From: Nocardia araoensis NBRC 100135
GTDB lineage: Bacteria; Actinomycetota; Actinomycetes; Mycobacteriales; Mycobacteriaceae
Assembly: GCF_000308435.1 (NCBI RefSeq)
Contig: NZ_BAFR01000351.1
Location: 1 to 64,000 of the forward strand
Length of the DNA stretch: 64,000 nucleotides
Direction: 5' to 3'
The notes under the pieces were generated by a model. It did no database searches. It had not been told where the DNA came from and was given only the letters and a program-made list of their open reading frames with translations. A program made the position numbers and the translations under genes. Shown here in pieces: positions 35,733 to 53,485 of this stretch. Each line of letters starts with the position of its first letter. The first letter of the stretch is position 1.

Positions 35733-36947
35733 TCAGAGATGGCGATGCGACGAGTAGTGGAATGCCAGAACCCCCACGAACGCGTGGATCTCCGCCAGTG
35801 TGTGCGCGGGCATCATGACGTCGCAGAACGGCAGGGCTGCCGCCATCGCGCCGGTGGTCGGCTGGAACCCGGCCTCGCCCGCACGGGGATTGAGCCAGAT
35901 GACGCGCCGAGCCCGGCGTCTGATCCGGGCCATCGCCCGGGCGAGCAGATCGGGGGTGTCGCTGTCCCAGCCGTCCGATGCGATGACGACGACGGCGCCG
36001 CGCATCGCGTTGCCGGATGGCGTCGCGAGCACCGCGCCGAGGCATCGGCCGATGTGCGTGCCGCCGTAGCGGTCGATCACCTTCTCGTTCGCGCGGGCCA
36101 CCGCGACCTCAGGGGAGCGGTGCGCGAGCACCGCGGTGAGCCTGGTCAGCGAGGTGGAGAAGGCGAACACCTCGGGCCGATCGGACGAACGACGTTGCAT
36201 GGCGGCCCGCATCAGATGCAGGTAGAGCGTCGAATACGGCTGCATGGAGCGGCTGACGTCGCAGACCATGACGATGCGGCGCGGGCGCCGCCGGGGACGA
36301 GTGCGGACCAGCACCGCCGACTCCCACCCGGTGCGGCGTGAGTCGTTCATCGTCGCCCGGAAGTCGATCCGCTTGCCGTGCGGATGACTTTCCCGGCGTG
36401 TGCTGCTGCGCTGCGGCCAGAGCGCCGCCGCCTGTTCCAGCCAGGCACCGATGGTCCGCAGATCGTCCGGATCGAAGCGGGCGAAGGGTTCTTGATCCCG
36501 GGCCGCGAACCGGCTCGGCAGCACGTCCGGAAGTGCCACACCCTGGTCGTCGGTGGACCGGTCGACACCGATTGCCGATCGTGGCGTGACCCAGGGGACG
36601 TCACCACCGTGCCGAGACGGCGCCCCGCCGCCTGCGCCCGGTGCCGAAGCGCGTTCGGCCGGCAGCCCATGCGTACGGCTCGCCGGGTCCACCCCCAGTA
36701 CCGCGTCGGCGAACACCGTCGCGAAGACCGCGTCGAAGGCCGCGAGATCTTGCATGCGATCGACGAGCGTGAGTCGCATCGCCCAGTAGAGTTCGGTGCG
36801 CGACCGCGGCGCCATGCGCCGCCAGGCTTGCACGAACAGTGCGGGACCACTCGGAGCCACCGCGACGCCACCGCGCCGCAGTCGCGCGACCACCGCGACG
36901 GCGAACGCGGCCAGATCCACGCCGCGCAGCAGTGCCGCCCGCGTCAT
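35733..36947 (-). CDS. coxE: CoxE-like VWA-domain protein, CO dehydrogenase maturation
   Basis: 404 residues with a C-terminal von Willebrand A domain. The MIDAS motif DVSRSM (D-x-S-x-S) is in MVCDVSRSMQPYSTLYLHLM, with further strands RGAVVVIASDGWDSD and CDVMMPAHTLAEIH. In Oligotropha CoxE works with the AAA+ protein CoxD to insert the Cu-S part of the CODH active site. It is the last gene of the minus-strand cox operon, and its ATG overlaps the coxG stop by four bases (ATGA). Confidence 0.88.
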   Translation of the reverse strand: MTRAALLRGVDLAAFAVAVVARLRRGGVAVAPSGPALFVQAWRRMAPRSRTELYWAMRLTLVDRMQDLAAFDAVFATVFADAVLGVDPASRTHGLPAERASAPGAGGGAPSRHGGDVPWVTPRSAIGVDRSTDDQGVALPDVLPSRFAARDQEPFARFDPDDLRTIGAWLEQAAALWPQRSSTRRESHPHGKRIDFRATMNDSRRTGWESAVLVRTRPRRRPRRIVMVCDVSRSMQPYSTLYLHLMRAAMQRRSSDRPEVFAFSTSLTRLTAVLAHRSPEVAVARANEKVIDRYGGTHIGRCLGAVLATPSGNAMRGAVVVIASDGWDSDTPDLLARAMARIRRRARRVIWLNPRAGEAGFQPTTGAMAAALPFCDVMMPAHTLAEIHAFVGVLAFHYSSHRHL

Positions 36948-37594
36948 CGCTTCGTGCGAGTCCGCCTGCGCACCAGGATGATTCCGAGCACTGCCGCGAG
37001 CACGAACGCGATCGCGGGCGCATACTTCTTGATCATCGCTGGGCCCATGAGTTCGACGAGGTCCAGCGGCGCGGGCTCGGACTGCGCGACCGGTTGCGGG
37101 TGCGCTGGTCGCCGCTCCTGTCCAGCCACCGGTGCCGCGACGGTCGCATCGCTCGCCGCGAGTTTGGTCTCCAAGGACGCGACGAATTGACCCATCATCT
37201 TCTCGGAAACCTGCTGCAACATTCCGCTGCCGAACTGGGCGAGTTTGCCGACGACCTTGAGGTCGGTGTCCACGGTGACACGGGTCCTGCCGTCCTCGGC
37301 GCACAGTCGTGTGGTGATGGTCGCGGCGGCGTTCCCGGATCCGTGTGAATCCCGTCCACGGCCGCTGATGACGGCGCGATGGTCGTGTTCGTCGCGCTCG
37401 ACGAATTGCGCTTTCCCGGTGAATTCGCTGGTCACCGGGCCGACTTTGATCTTCAATCTACCGAGGAAGTCGTCTCCCTGCCATCCGACCATCTGTGCGC
37501 CGGGTAGGAGCGGGACCACCTGTTCGAGGTCGGTCAGTACCTCCCATGCCTGCTCGACGGGTGCGTTGACGGTGAACTCGTTGGCGATCTTCAT
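36944..37594 (-). CDS. coxG: CoxG-like SRPBCC membrane-anchor protein
   Basis: 216 residues. An SRPBCC lipid-binding domain comes first (MKIANEFTVNAPVEQAWEVL, VPLLPGAQMVGWQGDDFLGR), then a proline-rich linker, then a C-terminal membrane helix (YAPAIAFVLAAVLGIILV) with a basic cytoplasmic end. CoxG recruits CO dehydrogenase to the membrane and, in recent mycobacterial work, carries quinone to it. The tail anchor here fits that role. It lies between coxD and coxE with minimal spacing. Confidence 0.9.
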   Translation of the reverse strand: MKIANEFTVNAPVEQAWEVLTDLEQVVPLLPGAQMVGWQGDDFLGRLKIKVGPVTSEFTGKAQFVERDEHDHRAVISGRGRDSHGSGNAAATITTRLCAEDGRTRVTVDTDLKVVGKLAQFGSGMLQQVSEKMMGQFVASLETKLAASDATVAAPVAGQERRPAHPQPVAQSEPAPLDLVELMGPAMIKKYAPAIAFVLAAVLGIILVRRRTRTKR

Positions 37595-37607
37595 TGCGCC
37601 ATCCCTC

Positions 37608-38495
37608 TCATCCGGTAGCCAGGTCTCGCGTGTATTCGGCGAATGCTTCCTGCACGGTGGCGCGGTCGTCGGGTGTCTTCGCCAGCGCGCTGAGCGCTGC
37701 GACCGCCTCCGGCGCGACCAGATCGGCGACATCGAGCGCGGCCAACGCGGCGATCCAGTCGATGGTCTCGGCGACACCGGGTGGTTTGTCGAGATCGAGA
37801 CCGCGGGCGTGAGCGACGAACAGGGTGGCATGCTCGATCAGCGCATCGGTTGCCCCGGGCACGGTGCGTCGCACGATCGCCACGGCGCGGGACTGCTCCG
37901 GGTAATCGATCCAGTGGTAGAGGCAGCGCCGCCGCAGCGCGTCGTGCAGGTCGCGGCTACGGTTCGAGGTCAGCACCGCCAGTGGCGGACGCGCGGCGGT
38001 GAAGGTTCCGAGTTCCGGGACGGTCACCGCGGCCTCACCCAGGAATTCCAGCAGCAACGCCTCGAATTCGTCGTCGGCACGGTCGATTTCGTCGACCAGC
38101 AGCACCGGGGGCGTCGGACCGCGATAGCGGACGCAGCGCAGGATCGGGCGGTCGACCAGGAACGCCTCGGTGAACAAGTCGGCCTCGGTGAGGTCGGCGC
38201 CACGCGCTTCGGCGAGCCGAATGCTGAGCAGCTGACGCTGGTAATTCCAGTCGTACAGCGCTTCGCTCACGGTGAGGCCCTCGTAGCACTGCAGGCGGAT
38301 CAGCGGAGCATCGAGCACGGTCGCCAGGGTCTTCGCCGCCGTCGTCTTGCCCACTCCCGGCTCGCCTTCCAGCAGGAGGGGCCGACCCAGCGTGGTGGCC
38401 AGGTAGAAGGCGGCGGCGGTCCCGGTATCGAGCAGGTAGTCGTCGGCGTCGAATCGCCGGACGACCTCCCCGATATCGTCGAACGGCGACATCAT
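37608..38495 (-). CDS. coxD: CoxD/MoxR-family AAA+ ATPase, CODH maturation
   Basis: 295 residues from the ATG at 38495 (a second ATG follows directly). Walker A GEPGVGKTT, Walker B VLLVDEIDRADDEFEALLLE, sensor-1 LTSNRSRDLHDALRRRC and a MoxR-type lid are visible. CoxD is the chaperone-like ATPase needed to build the Mo-S-Cu cluster of CoxL. It overlaps the MocA-like gene end and lies 13 bp before coxG. Confidence 0.9.
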   Translation of the reverse strand: MMSPFDDIGEVVRRFDADDYLLDTGTAAAFYLATTLGRPLLLEGEPGVGKTTAAKTLATVLDAPLIRLQCYEGLTVSEALYDWNYQRQLLSIRLAEARGADLTEADLFTEAFLVDRPILRCVRYRGPTPPVLLVDEIDRADDEFEALLLEFLGEAAVTVPELGTFTAARPPLAVLTSNRSRDLHDALRRRCLYHWIDYPEQSRAVAIVRRTVPGATDALIEHATLFVAHARGLDLDKPPGVAETIDWIAALAALDVADLVAPEAVAALSALAKTPDDRATVQEAFAEYTRDLATG

Positions 38496-39085
38496 GGCGA
38501 GGTCGAGGCCCGCAGGCGCTCGTAGTCGTCCCAGGTGTCCACGTCCAAGGGCACCGGTGCGTCGACGTCGAGTCGGGACACCGCGACGCGGCCCGACTCG
38601 ATGACCTTCCAAACGGCCTTGTCGCCGTGCAGGCGGGACAGTTCGCCGAAGCAGCCGCGGGGCAGCCAGAACGGATGCCCGACGCCGTCGCGGTAGCCGC
38701 AGACCGTGATCGCGGCGGGCGTTGCCTCCGCGATCAGTCGTTCGACGGTCGCCGCCGACAGGCCGGGTTGATCACCGAGCATCAGCACGATTCCGGCGGC
38801 TGCGGGATGCACCGCGCTCAGGGCCGAACGCAACGACGAGGAACAGCCCGAACCGAAGTCGTCGGCCACGACGACCTCCACCCCGGTGAGATCGACCTGC
38901 CGCCGAACCGCCGCGGCCGCCCCGCCGAGGGTGACGATGACCTGATCGAAACCGCAGGATCGCACGACCTCGACAGTGGCGCCGAGCAGCGTCGTCTCGC
39001 GGTAGGGCAGTAGTTGTTTCGCAGTGCCGAGACGCCGCGATGCTCCCGCCGCGAGTACCACCCCGGTGACGAATGCGGTTGTCAT
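38492..39085 (-). CDS. MocA-like molybdenum cofactor nucleotidyltransferase
   Basis: 197 residues. The nucleotide-binding motif VLAAGASRRLGTAKQLLPY and the metal motif LMLGDQPGLSAATVERL are those of the NTP_transf_3 family (MocA/MobA), and CGYRDGVGHPFWLPR is typical of MocA. It is predicted to make the cytosine dinucleotide form of molybdopterin (MCD) used by CODH. It overlaps its neighbours on both sides by four bases, inside the cox operon. Confidence 0.9.
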   Translation of the reverse strand: MTTAFVTGVVLAAGASRRLGTAKQLLPYRETTLLGATVEVVRSCGFDQVIVTLGGAAAAVRRQVDLTGVEVVVADDFGSGCSSSLRSALSAVHPAAAGIVLMLGDQPGLSAATVERLIAEATPAAITVCGYRDGVGHPFWLPRGCFGELSRLHGDKAVWKVIESGRVAVSRLDVDAPVPLDVDTWDDYERLRASTSP

Positions 39086-39987
39086 GAGCCCGTCTTCGCC
39101 GCGGCGAAGGAAGTGCGGCAGCCGGAGCCGCAGAACCAGTAGTCGACATCGTCGACAGTGAGATGTGGCGTGTCCGGCCCCACCGTGACGGTCATGCCGC
39201 ACACCGGATCGAGCGCTTCGAATGCGGCGCTCGACAGGCGAACCGGGACGGCCAAGCCGCCCTTACGGATCGCCTGGATCACTTCCGCGACAATCGAGAT
39301 GGCTATCTCCGCCGAGGTCTTGGCGCCGATCGGCAGACCCACCGGGGTGCGCACGCGCATGTGCTCGGCCTCGGTCAACCCGAGCTCGTCCAGAATCGAC
39401 GCTCCCCGGATCTTGCTGGCGACCAACCCGACATACCCCACGCCGGAGTCGAGCGCGGCGCGGATCATCTCGGCCTCCGGGCCGCCGTGGCTGGCGATCA
39501 CCACCGCCGTCGTGTCGGTCAGCGCATCCAGCGAGTCCGCTTCGCCGACATTGCGCTGCACGTCGAATCCGACGAGTGCGCACACTTCGGCCAGCGCGTC
39601 CGCGATGGGTGTCGCGCCGCAGATACGCACCAGCGGCGCCGGGATCTGCGGCTCGAGGAAGATCTCCAGCGCTCCGCCGGACAGGCAGGGATTCACCACC
39701 ACAGCCGCGCCGGGAGCTTCGGGGAATTGCAGGTCACCGTCGGGTAGCACACGCAGCAGCACGCTCTCGTTCGATTGCAGAGCGCCCAGCGCGGCCTTGC
39801 GGACCGAGTTCTGGGCGCACTGGCCGCCGACGAATCCTTCGATCGTCCCGTCCTGCAGGAGGATCGCCTCGTCCCCGGCATGCGCCGAGGTCGGCTGCTG
39901 CGCTCGGACGACAGTCGCGTGCACGAACGGAGTCCGGGTCCGAACCAGCTGCTGTGCACGCTCGGTCATCTTCATCGGTGATCCCAT
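39082..39987 (-). CDS. XdhC/CoxI-family protein fused to a C-terminal YHS domain
   Basis: About 301 residues; the start may be 39996, 39987 or 39975. The N-terminal XdhC_CoxI domain (FVHATVVRAQQPTSAHAGDE, IEGFVGGQCAQNSV) and Rossmann-like XdhC_C domain (VVIASHGGPEAEMIRAALDS, VGLVASKIRGA, RVRTPVGLPIGAKTSAEIAI) fit maturation factors that sulphurate the Mo cofactor. The last 45 residues form a YHS domain (DPVCGMTVTV and DYWFCGSGCRTSF) with three cysteines, a metal-binding module found in copper and heavy-metal proteins. The fusion would be sensible for a Cu-S-Mo enzyme. Follows coxL directly. Confidence 0.87.
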   Translation of the reverse strand: MGSPMKMTERAQQLVRTRTPFVHATVVRAQQPTSAHAGDEAILLQDGTIEGFVGGQCAQNSVRKAALGALQSNESVLLRVLPDGDLQFPEAPGAAVVVNPCLSGGALEIFLEPQIPAPLVRICGATPIADALAEVCALVGFDVQRNVGEADSLDALTDTTAVVIASHGGPEAEMIRAALDSGVGYVGLVASKIRGASILDELGLTEAEHMRVRTPVGLPIGAKTSAEIAISIVAEVIQAIRKGGLAVPVRLSSAAFEALDPVCGMTVTVGPDTPHLTVDDVDYWFCGSGCRTSFAAAKTGS

Positions 39988-40000
39988 TGCTCGCACCCAC

Positions 40001-42391
40001 TCAGACCGGCGGTGTGGCCCGGCCCTGCATCGCTTCCCAGACCCGGGACGGCGTCAGCGGCATGTCGGCGTGCCGTACGCCATAGGGCGCCAGCGCATCC
40101 ACCACCGCGTTGACCACCGCCGCCGGTGATCCGACGGTCGCCGATTCGCCGATGCCTTTCGCGCCGATCGGGTGGTGCGGCGACGGAGTGACCGTGTACC
40201 CGGTCTCGAAATGCGGAACCTCGAGCGCCGTCGGGATCAGGTAGTCCATCAGGGATCCGCCGAGGCAGTTGCCGTCCTCGTCGAAAGCGATGATCTCCAT
40301 CAGCGCCATGCCGATGCCGTCGGTGATGCCGCCGTGCACCTGGCCTTCGATGATCATCGGATTGATCCTGGTCCCGCAGTCGTCCACGGCGAGGAAGCGC
40401 CTGACCTTCACCACGGCCGTCCCCGGGTCGATATCGACGACGCAGAAGTACGCGCCATAGGGGTAGGTGAGATTCTCCGGGTTGTAACAGACCTGTGCGT
40501 CGAGTCCGCCCTCGATACCTTCGGGCAGATCGCCGGCGCCATGTGCCCGCATCGCGATCTGCTGGATCGTGACGGCCGCCGACGGGTCGCCTTTGACGTG
40601 GAACGAGCCCTTCTCCCACTCGAGGTCGGCAACGGAGACCTCGAGCATGCCGGACGCGATGATCCGCGCCTTGTCGCGCACCTTTCGCGCCACCAGCGCG
40701 GCAGCGGCGCCCGAGACCGGTGTCGAACGACTGCCGTAGGTGCCGAGGCCGAACGGGGTCTGGTCGGTGTCGCCGTGCACGACGTCGATGTCGTCCGGCG
40801 GTATCCCGAGTTCCTCGGCGACGATCTGCGCGAACGTCGTCTCGTGTCCCTGTCCCTGGGTTTGTACCGACAGCCGCACAACGGCTTTGCCGGTCGGGTG
40901 GACGCGCAACTCACACCCGTCGGCCATCCCGAGTCCGAGGATGTCCATGTCCTTGCGCGGACCCGCGCCCGCGGCTTCGGTGAAGAACGCCATCCCGACG
41001 CCCATCAACTCACCCCGGGCGCGCTTGCGCCGCTGTTCTTCGCGCAAGGCGTCGTATCCGATCATGTCCATCGCCAGGCGCATGGTCTTCGCGTAGTCGC
41101 CGGAGTCGTAGACCCAGCCGGTCTTGCTGGTGTACGGGAACTGTTCGGGGCGAAGCAGATTGCGCAGCCGCAGCTCCGCTGGATCCATCCGCAGTTCCTG
41201 AGCGAGGCAATCCACCAACCGCTCGACGAAGTAGACGGCCTCGGTGATCCGGAACGAGCACGCGTAGGCGACCCCGCCCGGGGCCTTGTTCGTGTAGACC
41301 GCGGTCATCTTGCAGTAGGCGGCCTCGATGTCATAGCTACCGGTGAAGACACCGAAGAAGCCGGCCGGATACTTCAACGGCGCGGCCGTGCCGTTGAAGG
41401 CGCCGTGATCGGCGAGGACGGTGGACCGGATGGCCAGGATCCTGCCGTCGGCGTCGGCGGCGATCTCGCCGACCATGATGTAGTCGCGGGCGAACCCGGT
41501 GCTGGTCAGATTCTCGCTGCGATCCTCCATCCATTTGACCGGTTTGCCCAGCAGCAGCGATCCGACGATGGCGCAGACGTAGCCCGGGTAGATGGGCACC
41601 TTGTTGCCGAACCCGCCGCCGATATCGGGTGCGATCACCCGGATCTTGTGCTCGGGTAGCCCGGCGACCATCGCGTAGATCGTGCGGTGGGCATGCGGTG
41701 CCTGGCTCGTCGACCACAATGTGAGCTTGCCGGTCACCGGATCGAGATCCGCGACGGCGCCGCAGGTTTCCATGGGGGCCGGATGCACTCGCGGATAGAC
41801 GATCTCCTGCCGAACGACGACGTCCGCGCGCGCGAACACCGCCTCGGTCGCGGCCGCGTCGCCGGTCTCCCAGTCGAAGCAGTGGTTGTCCCGCTTGCCC
41901 TCGAGATCGTCTCGGATCACCGGCATCTCGGGCGCGAGTGCGGTCCGCGCATCGATCACCGGGGGGAGCATCTCGTACTCGACGTCGATGAGTTCCAGCG
42001 CATCACGCGCGGAGTAGCGATCCTCGGCGACGACGAAGGCCACTTCCTGGCCCTGGAACCGGACCTTGTCGGTCGCCAGCACCGCCTGCACGTCGTTGGA
42101 AAGCGTCGGCATCCACGCCAGTCCCTTCGCGGCGAGATCCGCACCGGTGACGACCGCCTTGACCTTCGGGTGGGCCTGTGCCGCGGAGACGTCGACGCTC
42201 ACGATCCGCGCGTGCGCGAACGGGGAACGCAGGATCGCCATATGCAGCATGCCGGGCAGTTGAACGTCGTCGACGTAATTGCCGCGTCCGCGAATGAACC
42301 GGGGGTCCTCTTTGCGCAGCATCCTGCCGTGCCCGCACGGCTTGTGGTCGTTGTCGACGCGGTCTTCCGGCCGGGGTTCGACGGCGGTCAT
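40001..42391 (-). CDS. coxL: Aerobic carbon monoxide dehydrogenase, large (molybdenum) subunit, form I
   Basis: 796 residues. It oxidises CO to CO2 at a Mo-S-Cu centre and passes electrons through CoxS and CoxM to the respiratory chain. The decisive form I signature AYxCSFR is present as AYACSFR; the copper-binding Cys is residue 378 (codon 41258-41260), close to Cys388 of Oligotropha CoxL. Cofactor-binding segments IRVIAPDIGGGFGNK, QTQGQGHETTFAQI, GTYGSRSTPVSGAAA and the active-site Glu segment AKGIGESATVGSPA are intact. Form II enzymes have AYRGAGR instead. It overlaps coxS by four bases. Confidence 0.96.
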   Translation of the reverse strand: MTAVEPRPEDRVDNDHKPCGHGRMLRKEDPRFIRGRGNYVDDVQLPGMLHMAILRSPFAHARIVSVDVSAAQAHPKVKAVVTGADLAAKGLAWMPTLSNDVQAVLATDKVRFQGQEVAFVVAEDRYSARDALELIDVEYEMLPPVIDARTALAPEMPVIRDDLEGKRDNHCFDWETGDAAATEAVFARADVVVRQEIVYPRVHPAPMETCGAVADLDPVTGKLTLWSTSQAPHAHRTIYAMVAGLPEHKIRVIAPDIGGGFGNKVPIYPGYVCAIVGSLLLGKPVKWMEDRSENLTSTGFARDYIMVGEIAADADGRILAIRSTVLADHGAFNGTAAPLKYPAGFFGVFTGSYDIEAAYCKMTAVYTNKAPGGVAYACSFRITEAVYFVERLVDCLAQELRMDPAELRLRNLLRPEQFPYTSKTGWVYDSGDYAKTMRLAMDMIGYDALREEQRRKRARGELMGVGMAFFTEAAGAGPRKDMDILGLGMADGCELRVHPTGKAVVRLSVQTQGQGHETTFAQIVAEELGIPPDDIDVVHGDTDQTPFGLGTYGSRSTPVSGAAAALVARKVRDKARIIASGMLEVSVADLEWEKGSFHVKGDPSAAVTIQQIAMRAHGAGDLPEGIEGGLDAQVCYNPENLTYPYGAYFCVVDIDPGTAVVKVRRFLAVDDCGTRINPMIIEGQVHGGITDGIGMALMEIIAFDEDGNCLGGSLMDYLIPTALEVPHFETGYTVTPSPHHPIGAKGIGESATVGSPAAVVNAVVDALAPYGVRHADMPLTPSRVWEAMQGRATPPV

Positions 42392-42906
42392 GACGTGCTC
42401 CCGACCGGCGCTGCGGTGGACGCGGGTTCGGGCTCCACCGCTTCGCCCCGTTGCTTCGCCGCGGCCCACTGGATCGACCGCACGATGGTCGTGTATCCGG
42501 TGCAGCGGCAGATCTGACCGGAGATCGCCTCCCGAATGGTCTGCTCGTCGGGATCCGGGTTGCGGTCGAGCAGCGCGCGGGCCGTGATCATCATCCCGGG
42601 CGTGCAGAATCCGCACTGCAACCCGTGACACTGCATGAAGCCCTCCTGCACGGGATCGAGCCGCCCGTCCACCTCGAGTCCCTCGACGGTGCGCACCGAA
42701 CGGCCGCCGGCCATGACGGCCAGCATCGTGCACGACTTCACCGGTTCGCCGTCCACCTCCACCACACAGGTGCCGCAGTTGCTGGTGTCACATCCCCAGT
42801 GGGTTCCGGTGAGCCGCAACTGGTCTCGCAGGAAATGCACGAGCAGGGTGCGCGGCTCGACGTCGGCGGTCACCTGCTCGCCGTTGACGGTCATGGTTAC
42901 CTGCAT
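42388..42906 (-). CDS. coxS: Aerobic CO dehydrogenase, small iron-sulfur subunit
   Basis: 172 residues with two [2Fe-2S] domains. The plant-ferredoxin-type cluster is WGCDTSNCGTCVVEVDG with the fourth Cys in VKSCTML. The second cluster is CGFCTPGMMITARALL and GQICRCTGYTTIVRSI. A Pro/Ala-rich tail of about 20 residues is longer than usual. It transfers electrons between the Mo site and the FAD of CoxM. Overlaps coxM by 10 bp and coxL by 4 bp. Confidence 0.95.
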   Translation of the reverse strand: MQVTMTVNGEQVTADVEPRTLLVHFLRDQLRLTGTHWGCDTSNCGTCVVEVDGEPVKSCTMLAVMAGGRSVRTVEGLEVDGRLDPVQEGFMQCHGLQCGFCTPGMMITARALLDRNPDPDEQTIREAISGQICRCTGYTTIVRSIQWAAAKQRGEAVEPEPASTAAPVGSTS

Positions 42907-43799
42907 GGCTGATTCCCTCTCAGAGCAGGATCGTTCCGCACGCGCTCCACCGCGGTGCGCAGCGCGCGGATCGTCAGTTCGGACGCGAGGTGGCGCTTGT
43001 AGTCCGCGCTACCGCGCGGGTCGGAGGCGGGTGAGCACGCCGCGCTCGCCCGGCGGCCCACCTCCGCGAAGATCTCTTCGGTGGGCGGCTCACCGATGAG
43101 CGGGTCCGACGCGGTGGCCAGCGCCGCCGGATCGGGGTCGACCGCGGTCAGGCCGATCCGTGCGGCCGCTATCGCACCGTCGCGCAGTGTCACCGTGGCG
43201 CCGGCCGCCGCGATCGCCCAGTCGCCGACGCGGCGCTCCACTTTCCGGTAGGCACTGGAGGTTCGATGTCGCACGGGGATCCTGATCTCGATCAGCAGTT
43301 CGTTTCGCGTCATGGCGGTCTCGTACGGGCCGACCAGGAAGTCGTCCATCGCGATCTCCCGGTCGCCGGAGGGGCCGCGCACCAGGCAGGTGGCGCCGAG
43401 GACCGTGCAGACGGTGGTGAGATCTTCGGCGGGATCGGCTTGACACAGGGAGCCGCCGATCGTGCCGCGGTTGCGCACGACCGGGTCGGCGATCACGCGC
43501 TCGGCGTCCCGGAAGATCGGGCACACCGCGGCGAGGTCGTCGGATTCGAGCAGATGCCGGTGCCGCACCATCGCACCGATGCGCACCAGGGTCGGATCGG
43601 TGACGATATAGCCGAGCTCGGGAGCCAGGTCGTTGATGTCGATGAGATATTCCGGGTTGGCCAGGCGCAGTTTCATCATCGGCAACAGGCTGTGCCCGCC
43701 CGCGATGATGCGCGCCTCCTCTCCGAGTCGGTCCAGAAGTCCGATGGCGTGATCCACGCCCGTCGCGCGCTCGTATTCGAATGGCCCGGGAACTTGCAT
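42897..43799 (-). CDS. coxM: Aerobic CO dehydrogenase, medium FAD subunit
   Basis: 300 residues from the ATG at 43799, which follows GAGGTG; the upstream ORF extension is non-coding. FAD-binding motifs AGGHSLLPMMKLRLANPEYL and TIGGSLCQADPAED are those of CoxM/CutB, and a CO_deh_flav_C domain follows. It passes electrons to quinone. First structural gene of the order coxM-coxS-coxL. The XdhC/CoxF gene lies 79 bp upstream on the same strand. Confidence 0.95.
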   Translation of the reverse strand: MQVPGPFEYERATGVDHAIGLLDRLGEEARIIAGGHSLLPMMKLRLANPEYLIDINDLAPELGYIVTDPTLVRIGAMVRHRHLLESDDLAAVCPIFRDAERVIADPVVRNRGTIGGSLCQADPAEDLTTVCTVLGATCLVRGPSGDREIAMDDFLVGPYETAMTRNELLIEIRIPVRHRTSSAYRKVERRVGDWAIAAAGATVTLRDGAIAAARIGLTAVDPDPAALATASDPLIGEPPTEEIFAEVGRRASAACSPASDPRGSADYKRHLASELTIRALRTAVERVRNDPALRGNQPCR

Positions 43800-43865
43800 G
43801 TGATCCACCTCACACAGTGGGAAGAAGCTCAGCTTCTGCGCGCCTGACCTGGGCGTCAAGACCGA

Positions 43866-43883
43866 ATTAAGGGATTACTTAAT
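43866..43883. promoter_or_regulatory. AT-rich palindrome before coxM
   Basis: ATTAAG-GGATTA-CTTAAT is a perfect inverted repeat overlapping the coxF-like stop codon and lying 67 bp upstream of coxM. It is unusually AT-rich for the window. It could be an operator for an internal coxMSL promoter. Confidence 0.5.
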
Positions 43884-45012
43884 CCGCCGTCGGCGCTGTG
43901 TGGTGAATCCGTCCGCCGGTCCGGGTGAGTGAACCGCCGTGCCCGCCCCAGCGCCGCGCGATGATCTCGGCCGCGATGGACACCGCCGTCTCTTCCGGCG
44001 TCCGGCCGCCCAGATCCAGCCCGATCGGGCTGGCGAGCCTGCCGAGTTGCTCCTCGGTGAGACCGGCCTGCCGCAGGCGCGCCAGCCGCTGGTCGTGCGT
44101 GCGGCGCGACCCCATGGCGCCGACGTAGCCGATCTGTGGCGCCCGCAGCGCCACCTCGAGCAGCGGAACGTCGAACTTGGGATCGTGGGTCAGCACGCAG
44201 ACAACGGTCCGCCCATCGACCGCGCCTGCCTCGATCTGCGCGGCGAGGTAGCGGTGCGGCCAGTCGACGACGACCTCGTCGGCGGTCGGGAACCGGGCCG
44301 AGGTGGCGAAGATCGGTCGCGCGTCGCACACCGTCACCCGGTATCCGAGAAACGATCCCTGCTGCGCCACGGCGGCGGCGAAATCGATGGCCCCGAACAC
44401 GAGCATCCGCGGCTGCCGGGCATGACTGGCGACGAAGACCGCCATGCCCTCGCCGCGGCGTTGCCCGTCCGGGCCGTAGGACAGCACCTCGCTGCGACCT
44501 GCCGCGAGCAGTCCGGCCGCGTCATCGATCACCGCGTCGTCGGTGCGCGCCGACCCCAGGGTGCCCTGCGCATCGCTCGGCCGGATCAGCAGCCGTCGCC
44601 CGATCCGAGCGGAGTCCGGATGCTCGATGACGGTCGCGATCGCGACCGGCCGGTGGTCGGCGATGTCCGCGGCGACCTCGCCGAGTTCGGGAAACGTCTC
44701 CCGTGAGATCGCCTCGACGAAGACGTCGATGATGCCGCCGCAGGTGAGGCCGACGGCGAACGCGTCGTCATCGGAGAACCCGTACCGTTGCAGCACCGGA
44801 CGACCGGTCCGCACGACGTCGGTGGCGAGTTCGTAGACCGCGCCTTCGACGCAGCCGCCGGAGACCGAACCGCCGACCGTCCCGTCCGGCGCGACGACCA
44901 TCGCCGCGCCGGGCGGTCGCGGCGCCGAACGGAAGGTCCGCACGACCGTCGCGACCCCGGCTGTGCCCCCGGCGTTCCAGGTTGCCATCAGCTCCGTGAG
45001 CACGTCCTGCAT
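43879..45012 (-). CDS. XdhC/CoxF-family maturation protein
   Basis: 377 residues. The N-terminal XdhC_CoxI domain (VATVVRTFRSAPRPPGAAMV and GSVSGGCVEGAVYELATDVV) precedes a Rossmann XdhC_C domain (RMLVFGAIDFAAAVAQQGSF, CVLTHDPKFDVPLLEVALRA, YVGAMGSRRTHDQRLARL). It is probably needed to protect and sulphurate the Mo cofactor before insertion into CoxL, the role shown for XdhC in Rhodobacter. It is the first gene of the minus-strand run and is divergent from the LysR gene by only 64 bp. Confidence 0.92.
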   Translation of the reverse strand: MQDVLTELMATWNAGGTAGVATVVRTFRSAPRPPGAAMVVAPDGTVGGSVSGGCVEGAVYELATDVVRTGRPVLQRYGFSDDDAFAVGLTCGGIIDVFVEAISRETFPELGEVAADIADHRPVAIATVIEHPDSARIGRRLLIRPSDAQGTLGSARTDDAVIDDAAGLLAAGRSEVLSYGPDGQRRGEGMAVFVASHARQPRMLVFGAIDFAAAVAQQGSFLGYRVTVCDARPIFATSARFPTADEVVVDWPHRYLAAQIEAGAVDGRTVVCVLTHDPKFDVPLLEVALRAPQIGYVGAMGSRRTHDQRLARLRQAGLTEEQLGRLASPIGLDLGGRTPEETAVSIAAEIIARRWGGHGGSLTRTGGRIHHTAPTAD

Positions 45013-45076: not shown

Positions 45077-46033
45077 GTGACGCCCGCCCAACTTCGGGCC
45101 TACTCGACCGTGGTGCGGCTCGGCTCCGTCCATGCGGCGGCCAGAGAGCTGAGGATGTCCGACGCCGGTGTCTCGCTGCACATCGCCCAGCTGCGCAAGG
45201 AACTCGACGACCCGCTGTTCACCCGCGATGCGGCGGGCCTGGCCTTCACTCCCGGCGGACTGCGCCTGGCCAGCCGGGCGATCGAGATCCTCGGACTGCA
45301 GCGGCAGACCGCTGTCGAGGTGAGCGAAGCCGCGCACGGCCGGCGGCTGCTGCGCATCGCGGCGTCGAGCGCGTTCGCCGAACATGCCGCGCCCGGCCTC
45401 ATCGACTTGTTCGCGGCGCGGGCGAAGGATCTGTCGGTCGAGCTGAGCGTGCACCCCACCAGCCAGTTCCGCGGCCTGATCGAAACCCGTGCGGTGGACA
45501 TCGCATTGGGGGCCGGGCCGGACGACATCGATACGGCCATCGCCGCCCGGCCGTTCCTGAAGTATCAGATCATCGCGGTCGCACGCCCGGACAGCCCCGT
45601 CGCGGGTGCGGCTCCGCCTCCGGCGCTGCTGCGGGAGCAACCGTGGATGCTGGGCCCGAGCGCGGGCAGCGTGGACGGGCACATCGCGACGATGCTGCGC
45701 GAGTTGGCCATACCCGAATCGCATCAGCGGATCTTCCAGAGCGATGCCGCAGCTCTGGAAGAGGTCCGCCGGGTCGGAGGCATCACCCTGACGATCGGCT
45801 TCGCCGTGGCCGCCGATCTCGCCGCCGGTCGGTTGAGCCACGTCAAGGGACCCGGGCTGCAGGTATCCGACGAGTGGTGCGCCACGACGTTGCCGCCTGA
45901 TTCCCGCCAACCGGCGGTGTCGGAACTGTTGCGGTTCATCACCACCCCGCGCTGCATCCAGGCGATGATCCGTGGGTCCGGCGTCGGCGTCACCCGGTTC
46001 CGGCCGAAAGTGCACGTGACCTTGTGGAGTTGA
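45077..46033 (+). CDS. LysR-family regulator of the CO dehydrogenase cluster (CutR-like)
   Basis: 318 residues. N-terminal winged HTH TPAQLRAYSTVVRLGSVHAA, then ARELRMSDAGVSLHIAQLRK. The substrate-binding domain runs from about residue 90 (LLRIAASSAFAEHAAPGLID) to the end, with a C-terminal GVGVTRFRPKVHVTLWS. LysR-type CutR is the known activator of CODH genes in Mycobacterium sp. JC1 and lies divergently there too. The same layout here supports control by CO or redox state, though the effector is unknown. Confidence 0.88.
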   Translation: MTPAQLRAYSTVVRLGSVHAAARELRMSDAGVSLHIAQLRKELDDPLFTRDAAGLAFTPGGLRLASRAIEILGLQRQTAVEVSEAAHGRRLLRIAASSAFAEHAAPGLIDLFAARAKDLSVELSVHPTSQFRGLIETRAVDIALGAGPDDIDTAIAARPFLKYQIIAVARPDSPVAGAAPPPALLREQPWMLGPSAGSVDGHIATMLRELAIPESHQRIFQSDAAALEEVRRVGGITLTIGFAVAADLAAGRLSHVKGPGLQVSDEWCATTLPPDSRQPAVSELLRFITTPRCIQAMIRGSGVGVTRFRPKVHVTLWS

Positions 46034-47286: not shown

Positions 47287-48028
47287 CGGCCGATATCGGC
47301 ATGCCACATGTGGTGATGCCTGCGTCACCGTCCTCGCGGCTCGCTGGGCGAGGTCTGTGGTCGACGTGCCTGGGCTTCCTGCGGGGGCACGGGCAGGGGT
47401 GCGATGCGGTGATGAAGCGCGGGGTCGACGGCGGCGCGGACGACGTCATGGGTTCTGAACACTTGGACAAGGATGTGGAACCCGGCGTGGCCCGACCGCG
47501 CGGTTCACCGTCGCAGGGGTCGGTCGAGGTGAAGAATACGGCGACAGCTCGCTCCGGCACCCGAGTGCAGCGGCGCTTCCGCAATCGGGCGAGGTGCAAC
47601 GGCGGTGGCATGGAGGTTCGCGACCGCCCGCAACGGACCGCTCGATAAAATATTCGAAACCGACCAGTAATTCGCGTTTCTGATTCCATATCGGAACACG
47701 ACGATGCGAGTGCATGCGAGGCGAAAAGATTGACGCGGCACCGGCCTGCCTCTAACGTTCGCGTGGTGAACGATGCTTACCATGCGGCGTCGGAGTGGCC
47801 GTCGCAGGTATCGCCGTCTCCGCGACCGACGGATGCCGGATCACCCCGCGCCTTCCGCACAGTCGCAGCTGGCAGCGAGCTACCCGGCGCTCCTGCCCCC
47901 GGTTCGCGCGACGATACGGCCGAGTAACCGCCGGACAGGTGTATTCGCACCGACCGGTTGTGCGAAAAAGGGTGTTCACCCTTTGCCCGTCGACCGGGCC
48001 AATACTTCGGAGAGGAAGGAACCGGCGA
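47287..48028. other. Long intergenic region before the carboxylase, with a candidate promoter
   Basis: 742 bp without a convincing gene. Frames at 47283-47648 (plus) and 47210-47689 (minus) are low-complexity shadows. A good sigma-70-type promoter is present at 47730-47758: TTGACG, 17 bp, TAACGT. Transcription would begin near 47764, exactly at GTGGTG, so a leaderless frame 47763-47927 (VNDAYHAASEWPSQ...) ending TAA is possible but unproven. The message would then carry a leader of about 265 bases before the carboxylase. Confidence 0.5.
47730..47758 (+). promoter_or_regulatory. Candidate promoter of the multidomain carboxylase
   Basis: -35 TTGACG (47730-47735) and -10 TAACGT (47753-47758) with 17-bp spacing, in a locally AT-rich part of the region. 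Confidence 0.5.

Positions 48029-53485
<5,457 letters not shown>

Follow-up and report, generated by a model that had tools for sequence, protein, structure and literature searches.

A cox operon of Nocardia araoensis raises the question of what a YHS/TRASH-type domain contributes to an accessory protein of form I CO dehydrogenase (CODH), the copper-containing form of the enzyme. The operon lies in the window, by which we mean the whole 64,000-nucleotide stretch of DNA analysed here, and its features are as follows.

39082..39987, minus strand: coxF, XdhC-family CODH maturation factor with a C-terminal YHS/TRASH-type domain (301 aa; ATG at 39987, stop 39082-39084)
39097..39228, minus strand: YHS/TRASH-type domain of the window CoxF, about residues 254-297 (profile matches, fold model)
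39658..39690, minus strand: CoxF loop around the invariant C101 (P-CLSGGALEIF), in the position where a putative Cu motif has been published for CoxF of Oligotropha (available text of PMC4240915)
40001..42391, minus strand: coxL, form I, with AYACSFR loop (domain and TIGR02416 match, loop from ORF)
42388..42906, minus strand: coxS, [2Fe-2S] subunit (domain match)
42897..43859, minus strand: coxM, FAD subunit, longest ORF (domain match)
43879..45012, minus strand: coxI-type XdhC gene without YHS (ORF and domain match)
38492..39085, minus strand: MobA/MocA-like NTP transferase, its start codon overlapping the coxF stop (ATGA)
37608..38516, minus strand: coxD, MoxR-type AAA+ ATPase (domain match)
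36944..37600, minus strand: coxG (domain match)
35733..36947, minus strand: coxE, von Willebrand A protein (domain match)
45077-46033, divergent from the cox operon: LysR regulator

Read along the minus strand, the gene order is coxI-type XdhC, coxM, coxS, coxL, coxF, MobA/MocA-like, coxD, coxG and coxE, with coxF directly downstream of coxL and its ATG 13 bases from the coxL stop. The window CoxL scores 1451 bits against the CO-dehydrogenase equivalog TIGR02416 (cutoff 991), and the form I loop GVAYACSFR was read from its ORF in the alignment. In CoxF, Pfam XdhC_CoxI covers residues 15-79 (E 1e-14) and XdhC_C residues 122-236 (E 2e-21), and a model of the whole protein (pLDDT 92.7) has XdhC-family structures (2we8/2we7 and 3on5) as its best solved matches; because the Rossmann domain fills the list of structural matches, the lack of a YHS-type chain among those listed does not speak against one. 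The initial annotation had described an XdhC/CoxI protein fused to a YHS domain inside a cox operon. The fusion, its place beside a form I coxL and the XdhC family are all borne out, but the protein is the orthologue of CoxF rather than CoxI. The coxI-type gene of the operon is another one, upstream at 43879-45012, and in a rapidly built tree of 119 CoxF cores, with a pair of CoxI rows on long branches as outgroup, the CoxF rows separate from CoxI with a support of 99 and the window CoxF groups with that of Oligotropha, apart from CoxI. On these two grounds we rejected coxI as the identity of the gene and assign 39082-39987 to coxF. CoxF shares its two-domain XdhC fold (2we8, 3on5) with the XdhC/CoxI/PaoD molybdoenzyme chaperones but differs from them in a conserved loop, which is C-x-S-x-G in 144 of 149 CoxF proteins, whereas 30 of 52 CoxI-like ORFs have CGG at that position and 22 fit neither pattern; none of the 52 has C-x-S-x-G or the YHS domain. 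The client enzymes of these chaperones are not known to contain copper.

The C-terminal 45 or so residues had been called YHS-type from their DPVCGMTV and FCGSGC motifs, and this description holds, though the Pfam YHS model itself misses this copy. The C-terminus reads DPVCGMTV...YWFCGSGC, and its putative ligands, D260 (39208-39210), C263 (39199-39201), C286 (39130-39132) and C290 (39118-39120), are spaced D-x2-C...C-x3-C. Pfam YHS (PF04945) gives no match to the window CoxF at E≤0.1 and none anywhere in the N. araoensis genome at E≤1, and a TRASH model (E 0.06) is the sole YHS/TRASH-type Pfam match. A YHS profile made for the homology test out of 15 CoxF tails, none sharing more than 45% identity with the window copy, matches the window CoxF at E 7e-15, the next value among 1015 window ORFs being 0.77. 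Across 53 aligned CoxF proteins, PF04945 matches 42, a TRASH model 24 and zf-FCS 5. We rejected a chance match because of the E value of this independent profile together with the 42 CoxF proteins recognized by PF04945, and the XdhC-YHS fusion is confirmed. In the 7.7 Mb N. araoensis genome, coxF is the one place that the YHS profile matches at E≤0.001 (44 of 101 candidates scored). In a profile search of PDB sequences, the domain is closest to the phenol hydroxylase YHS (E 3e-6), followed by ribosomal L24e (E 0.015-0.7), and the weak matches include a MYM-type zinc finger. Modeled alone, the domain has a pLDDT of 91.9, and the 50 PDB chains listed as its structural matches are all ribosomal, several being L24e, with TM scores to the query of 0.54-0.64 and E values of 0.6-2.4, none below 0.5. 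The likeness to the phenol hydroxylase YHS and the L24e TRASH domain is one of sequence profile, any likeness in fold (to ribosomal chains) being weak. The phenol hydroxylase YHS, L24e and the MYM-type zinc finger are not known as copper carriers; L24e binds Cd in a crystal, according to the available text of PMC4626032.

The initial annotation had also proposed a survey of whether the fusion is limited to clusters with form I coxL, called here from 'CSF' in the aligned loop, and the results agree with that limit. Our first sample drew on 71 places matched by the window CoxF in 396 genomes of its phylum, with the best five candidates scored per genome; 60 were used, one is the window itself, and the 10 left out are for the most part partial or weak. 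Within these 60, YHS is intact in 56, a Cys-containing tail stands in 2, neither is found in 1, and 1 is cut by a contig edge. The nearest coxL is form I at 52 of the places, adjacent at 51 of them and at one lying on the opposite strand at a greater distance. Three places have a coxL fragment whose length does not allow typing, five show no coxL on the stretch, and no other form was seen. The second sample, the best 80 of at least 586 loci, was found with form I coxL alone and hence was unselected for YHS; it gave 63 loci with YHS, 2 with a degenerate copy, 3 with a Cys tail, 3 with neither, 4 at a contig edge and 5 with no CoxF seen. Two of these last five are on short contigs (L105, L134); the other three form I clusters (L143, L174, L176) have coxD and coxE but lack coxF in the roughly 9 kb that flank them on either side.

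When 150 complete CoxF proteins were classed, 122 had an intact YHS, retaining the x-P-x-C...C-x3-C spacing, 3 a degenerate one, 7 a Cys tail and 18 neither, with no tail Cys. This count includes two repeats (L159, identical to L039, and L266, from the genome of L149) and takes as intact the short-spaced L052, L171 and L178 and also L112, whose first ligand is Cys; it leaves out five contig-edge CoxF, five second XdhC genes, loci L277-L288 and four Pseudomonadota loci with unplaceable tails (L271, L272, L274, L275), of which L274 does carry YHS. CoxF with two tandem YHS domains occurs at L051, L117 and L120. Among 35,305 ORFs of 175 cox and XdhC loci, the YHS profile matches 125 proteins, every one scored as CoxF. 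The YHS pattern is found in 0 of 52 CoxI-like ORFs of cox loci, on none of five second, non-CoxF XdhC genes (L113, L136, L138, L144, L145) and on none of the non-CoxF XdhC tails listed for control loci; on this evidence we rejected XdhC-YHS as a general fusion. In a sample of 149 genomes, we looked at 51 YHS ORFs from 50 loci. XdhC proteins, scored as CoxF, account for 22 of them, and proteins of other kinds for 29; 21 of those 22 places belong to the first sample or are the window, and the last (G124) was seen in a short locus. In the loci sampled and typed, XdhC-YHS fusions are the coxF of form I clusters only. By their database entry labels, the hosts of YHS-bearing CoxF are Chloroflexota, Acidobacteriota, Gemmatimonadota, Armatimonadota, Bacteroidota, SAR324, Neomarinimicrobiota, Eremiobacterota, Thermaceae, Actinomycetota, some Pseudomonadota and two archaea, and a search for relatives in viral contigs found none.

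On the CoxI-rooted tree, YHS is spread over the whole tree, and a clade of 14 rows without it (support 97) holds Oligotropha and Acetobacteraceae. The domain therefore looks ancestral in CoxF and seems to have been lost in the alphaproteobacterial clade of Oligotropha; this reading of the sequences rests on the outgroup root, as a count of changes alone cannot tell gain from loss and many forks are open. Nonomuraea and Acrocarpospora (support 98) also lack YHS, as does L044, a row absent from the thinned tree. A Pseudomonadota sample gave matches in 27 of 398 genomes (31 places, 30 with loci); its query was a YHS-less CoxF, so that it leans to YHS-less relatives, and L274 still has YHS. At the YHS position, several lineages have short Cys/His-containing tails: GGGHCCG in Actinomadura, GGGCCGHGSG in G381, SSCCGG (twice) in a Burkholderiales MAG, HHCDAHGH in M. 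brisbanense and HCAAHGH in G325. Two members of the 14-row clade (L261, L263) have Cys only at the far end and were not counted as metal tails, though they are among the seven 'Cys tail' rows above. Such tails occur in 5 of 8 YHS-less CoxF outside the alphaproteobacterial clade, against any Cys after the match in 2 of 52 CoxI-like ORFs (Fisher p 2e-4, on rows that are not independent and with the five second XdhC genes left out); two of those five second genes (L136, L138) have a tail Cys. Degenerate YHS copies, in which the first Cys is lost and the Cys pair is shifted to C-x2-C, are found at L002, L137 and L140, from Deinococcus, Meiothermus and a contig that bears the name Bifidobacterium breve, while the close Thermaceae relative L139 keeps the intact form. 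The form I cox cluster of L140 (CAMDVX010000085.1) belongs to a MAG with that B. breve title, perhaps through a binning error. Elsewhere in two genomes with YHS-less CoxF, those of Acidisoma (L149) and M. brisbanense (L163), the YHS profile finds nothing at E≤0.001.

Experimental work on coxF was found for one organism only, Oligotropha (Afipia) carboxidovorans OM5. Its CoxF, encoded on pHCG3, has the orthologous XdhC core (33.5% identical to the window CoxF over residues 20-224), the C-x-S-x-G loop and a form I cox cluster, but in place of YHS it ends in a short tail, RRHGQRQS..., that holds the published phytase motif. An earlier paper, in its available text, gives CoxF and CoxI as uncharacterised at that time and CoxF as closer to the XdhC homologues of other CODH operons (PMC2997495). 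The available part of PMC4240915 reports that the CODH of Oligotropha coxE and coxF mutants is without copper, describes in vitro treatment with sulfide and Cu(I)-thiourea, and proposes CoxF as the copper supplier by way of an MCPSHGTM motif, a phytase motif and RGD. CoxF is already published as the copper supplier, in part through motifs that are not conserved: across 149 CoxF proteins, the phytase motif occurs once (Oligotropha itself) and RGD in 20, while the place of MCPSHGTM is kept as C-x-S-x-G in 144. In Oligotropha CoxF (L005 8944-9786), the phytase motif RHGQRQS falls within the short, variable tail, and relatives such as L154 and L259 have not retained it. According to the same text, CoxE and CoxF are mutually dependent and the coxF mutant also lacks CoxE (PMC4240915), so the copper defect is not attributable to CoxF alone. 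Since the Oligotropha protein functions without YHS, not all lineages can depend on the domain.

A second line of evidence comes from the adenylyl cyclase of Mycobacterium phlei, whose YHS has D178, C181, C204 and C208 as proposed ligands (D-x2-C, C-x3-C) and which, in the available text, is activated by Cu2+ and by none of Zn, Fe(II), Fe(III), Cr, Co and Ni (PMC4626032). This domain has the same ligand spacing as that of the window CoxF and is likewise C-terminal, fused to an unrelated catalytic domain; it differs in regulating a cyclase and has no tie to an XdhC protein or CODH. Taken together, the copper-free CODH of the coxF and coxE mutants (PMC4240915) and this copper-responsive YHS (PMC4626032), as far as the available text of each goes, favor a copper-holding role and make the link to copper stronger than the initial annotation could know; its reading of the domain as a copper chaperone is partly supported.

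Our preferred explanation is that CoxF, with CoxD and CoxE, would mature the Mo-S-Cu site of form I CODH. The XdhC core may dock on the apo-enzyme and its sulfurated molybdenum cofactor, while the YHS domain would bind Cu(I), in preference to zinc, through its D/Cys/Cys/Cys set and keep it close; the copper could then be handed to the Mo-SH site, perhaps via the conserved C101 loop. We give this reading as a whole, with docking and handover, a probability of about 0.55. Counted in its favor are the confinement of YHS to CoxF among the ORFs of the 175 loci, its wide occurrence, the single YHS place in the N. araoensis genome, the Cys/His tails and the conservation of C-x-S-x-G. Counted against it are the functional YHS-less CoxF, the 18 of 150 proteins with no tail Cys, the degenerate copies, the zinc-finger-like relatives (zf-FCS in 5 of 53), the entanglement of CoxE and CoxF in Oligotropha, the three form I clusters in which CoxF was not found and the tail Cys in two of five second XdhC genes.

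The main rival to Cu(I) is structural zinc: YHS would be a zinc knuckle that stabilizes CoxF or docks on CoxE, CoxD or apo-CODH, leaving copper to the C101 loop of the XdhC core alone. The resemblance to L24e/TRASH and zinc-finger-type domains speaks for it, as do an Oligotropha CoxF that works without YHS and a C-x-S-x-G loop better conserved than the domain. However, simple CCGH or HHC tails replace YHS in several lineages, which fits the holding of a metal better than docking, and the tie to form I CODH is without exception among typed loci; we consider the zinc knuckle rather unlikely, at something over one chance in four. A sensing role would use copper differently, with YHS gating CoxF so that insertion proceeds only when copper is present, in the manner of the M. 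phlei cyclase, where a C-terminal YHS of the same type responds to Cu2+ (available text of PMC4626032). Short Cys-containing tails would make improbable allosteric switches, and the CODH of the coxF mutant is itself without copper (available text of PMC4240915), such that a sensor in place of a donor seems improbable to us.

A role without any metal, in which the tail would take part in sulfur or redox chemistry, for instance by shielding the Mo-SH group, draws on the cysteine present in the tails and on the view, in the available part of PMC4240915, that XdhC proteins protect sulfurated Moco. The regular spacing kept in 122 of 150 CoxF and the lack of the domain on all 52 CoxI-like ORFs leave this the most doubtful of the explanations, and we give it very little weight.

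Beyond copper holding by YHS, we advance more tentatively, at slightly less than even odds, that the C-terminal metal module of CoxF is the dedicated copper donor of CODH, with YHS as its ancestral form, kept (judging by entry labels) in at least nine bacterial phyla and in archaea, exchanged for a Cys/His tail in some lineages and lost in the alphaproteobacteria. On that proposal, YHS would have gone unseen because the alphaproteobacteria, including the organism of the copper-insertion work, lost it. The published copper-insertion model rests on the Oligotropha CoxF and partly on unconserved motifs; a discrete, swappable metal module would suggest which residues to change and which lineages to set side by side, would account for its having been missed in the model organism, and offers a testable idea of how copper reaches CODH. 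We found no description of the fusion, of its tie to form I CODH, of its probable ancestral status or of the tail replacement, though the parts are already known. No paper joining YHS with XdhC was found in a search of openly available literature, and subscription papers may note the fusion; a selenoprotein review containing both YHS and CO dehydrogenase has the two terms, in its available text, in separate table rows (PMC9312934).

Elsewhere in the window, the plus-strand ORF at 47795-53485 (1896 aa by the longest start) unites biotin carboxylase, biotinyl, ACC_central and carboxyltransferase domains in a single polypeptide, an architecture that resembles that of the multidomain acetyl-CoA carboxylases of eukaryotes.
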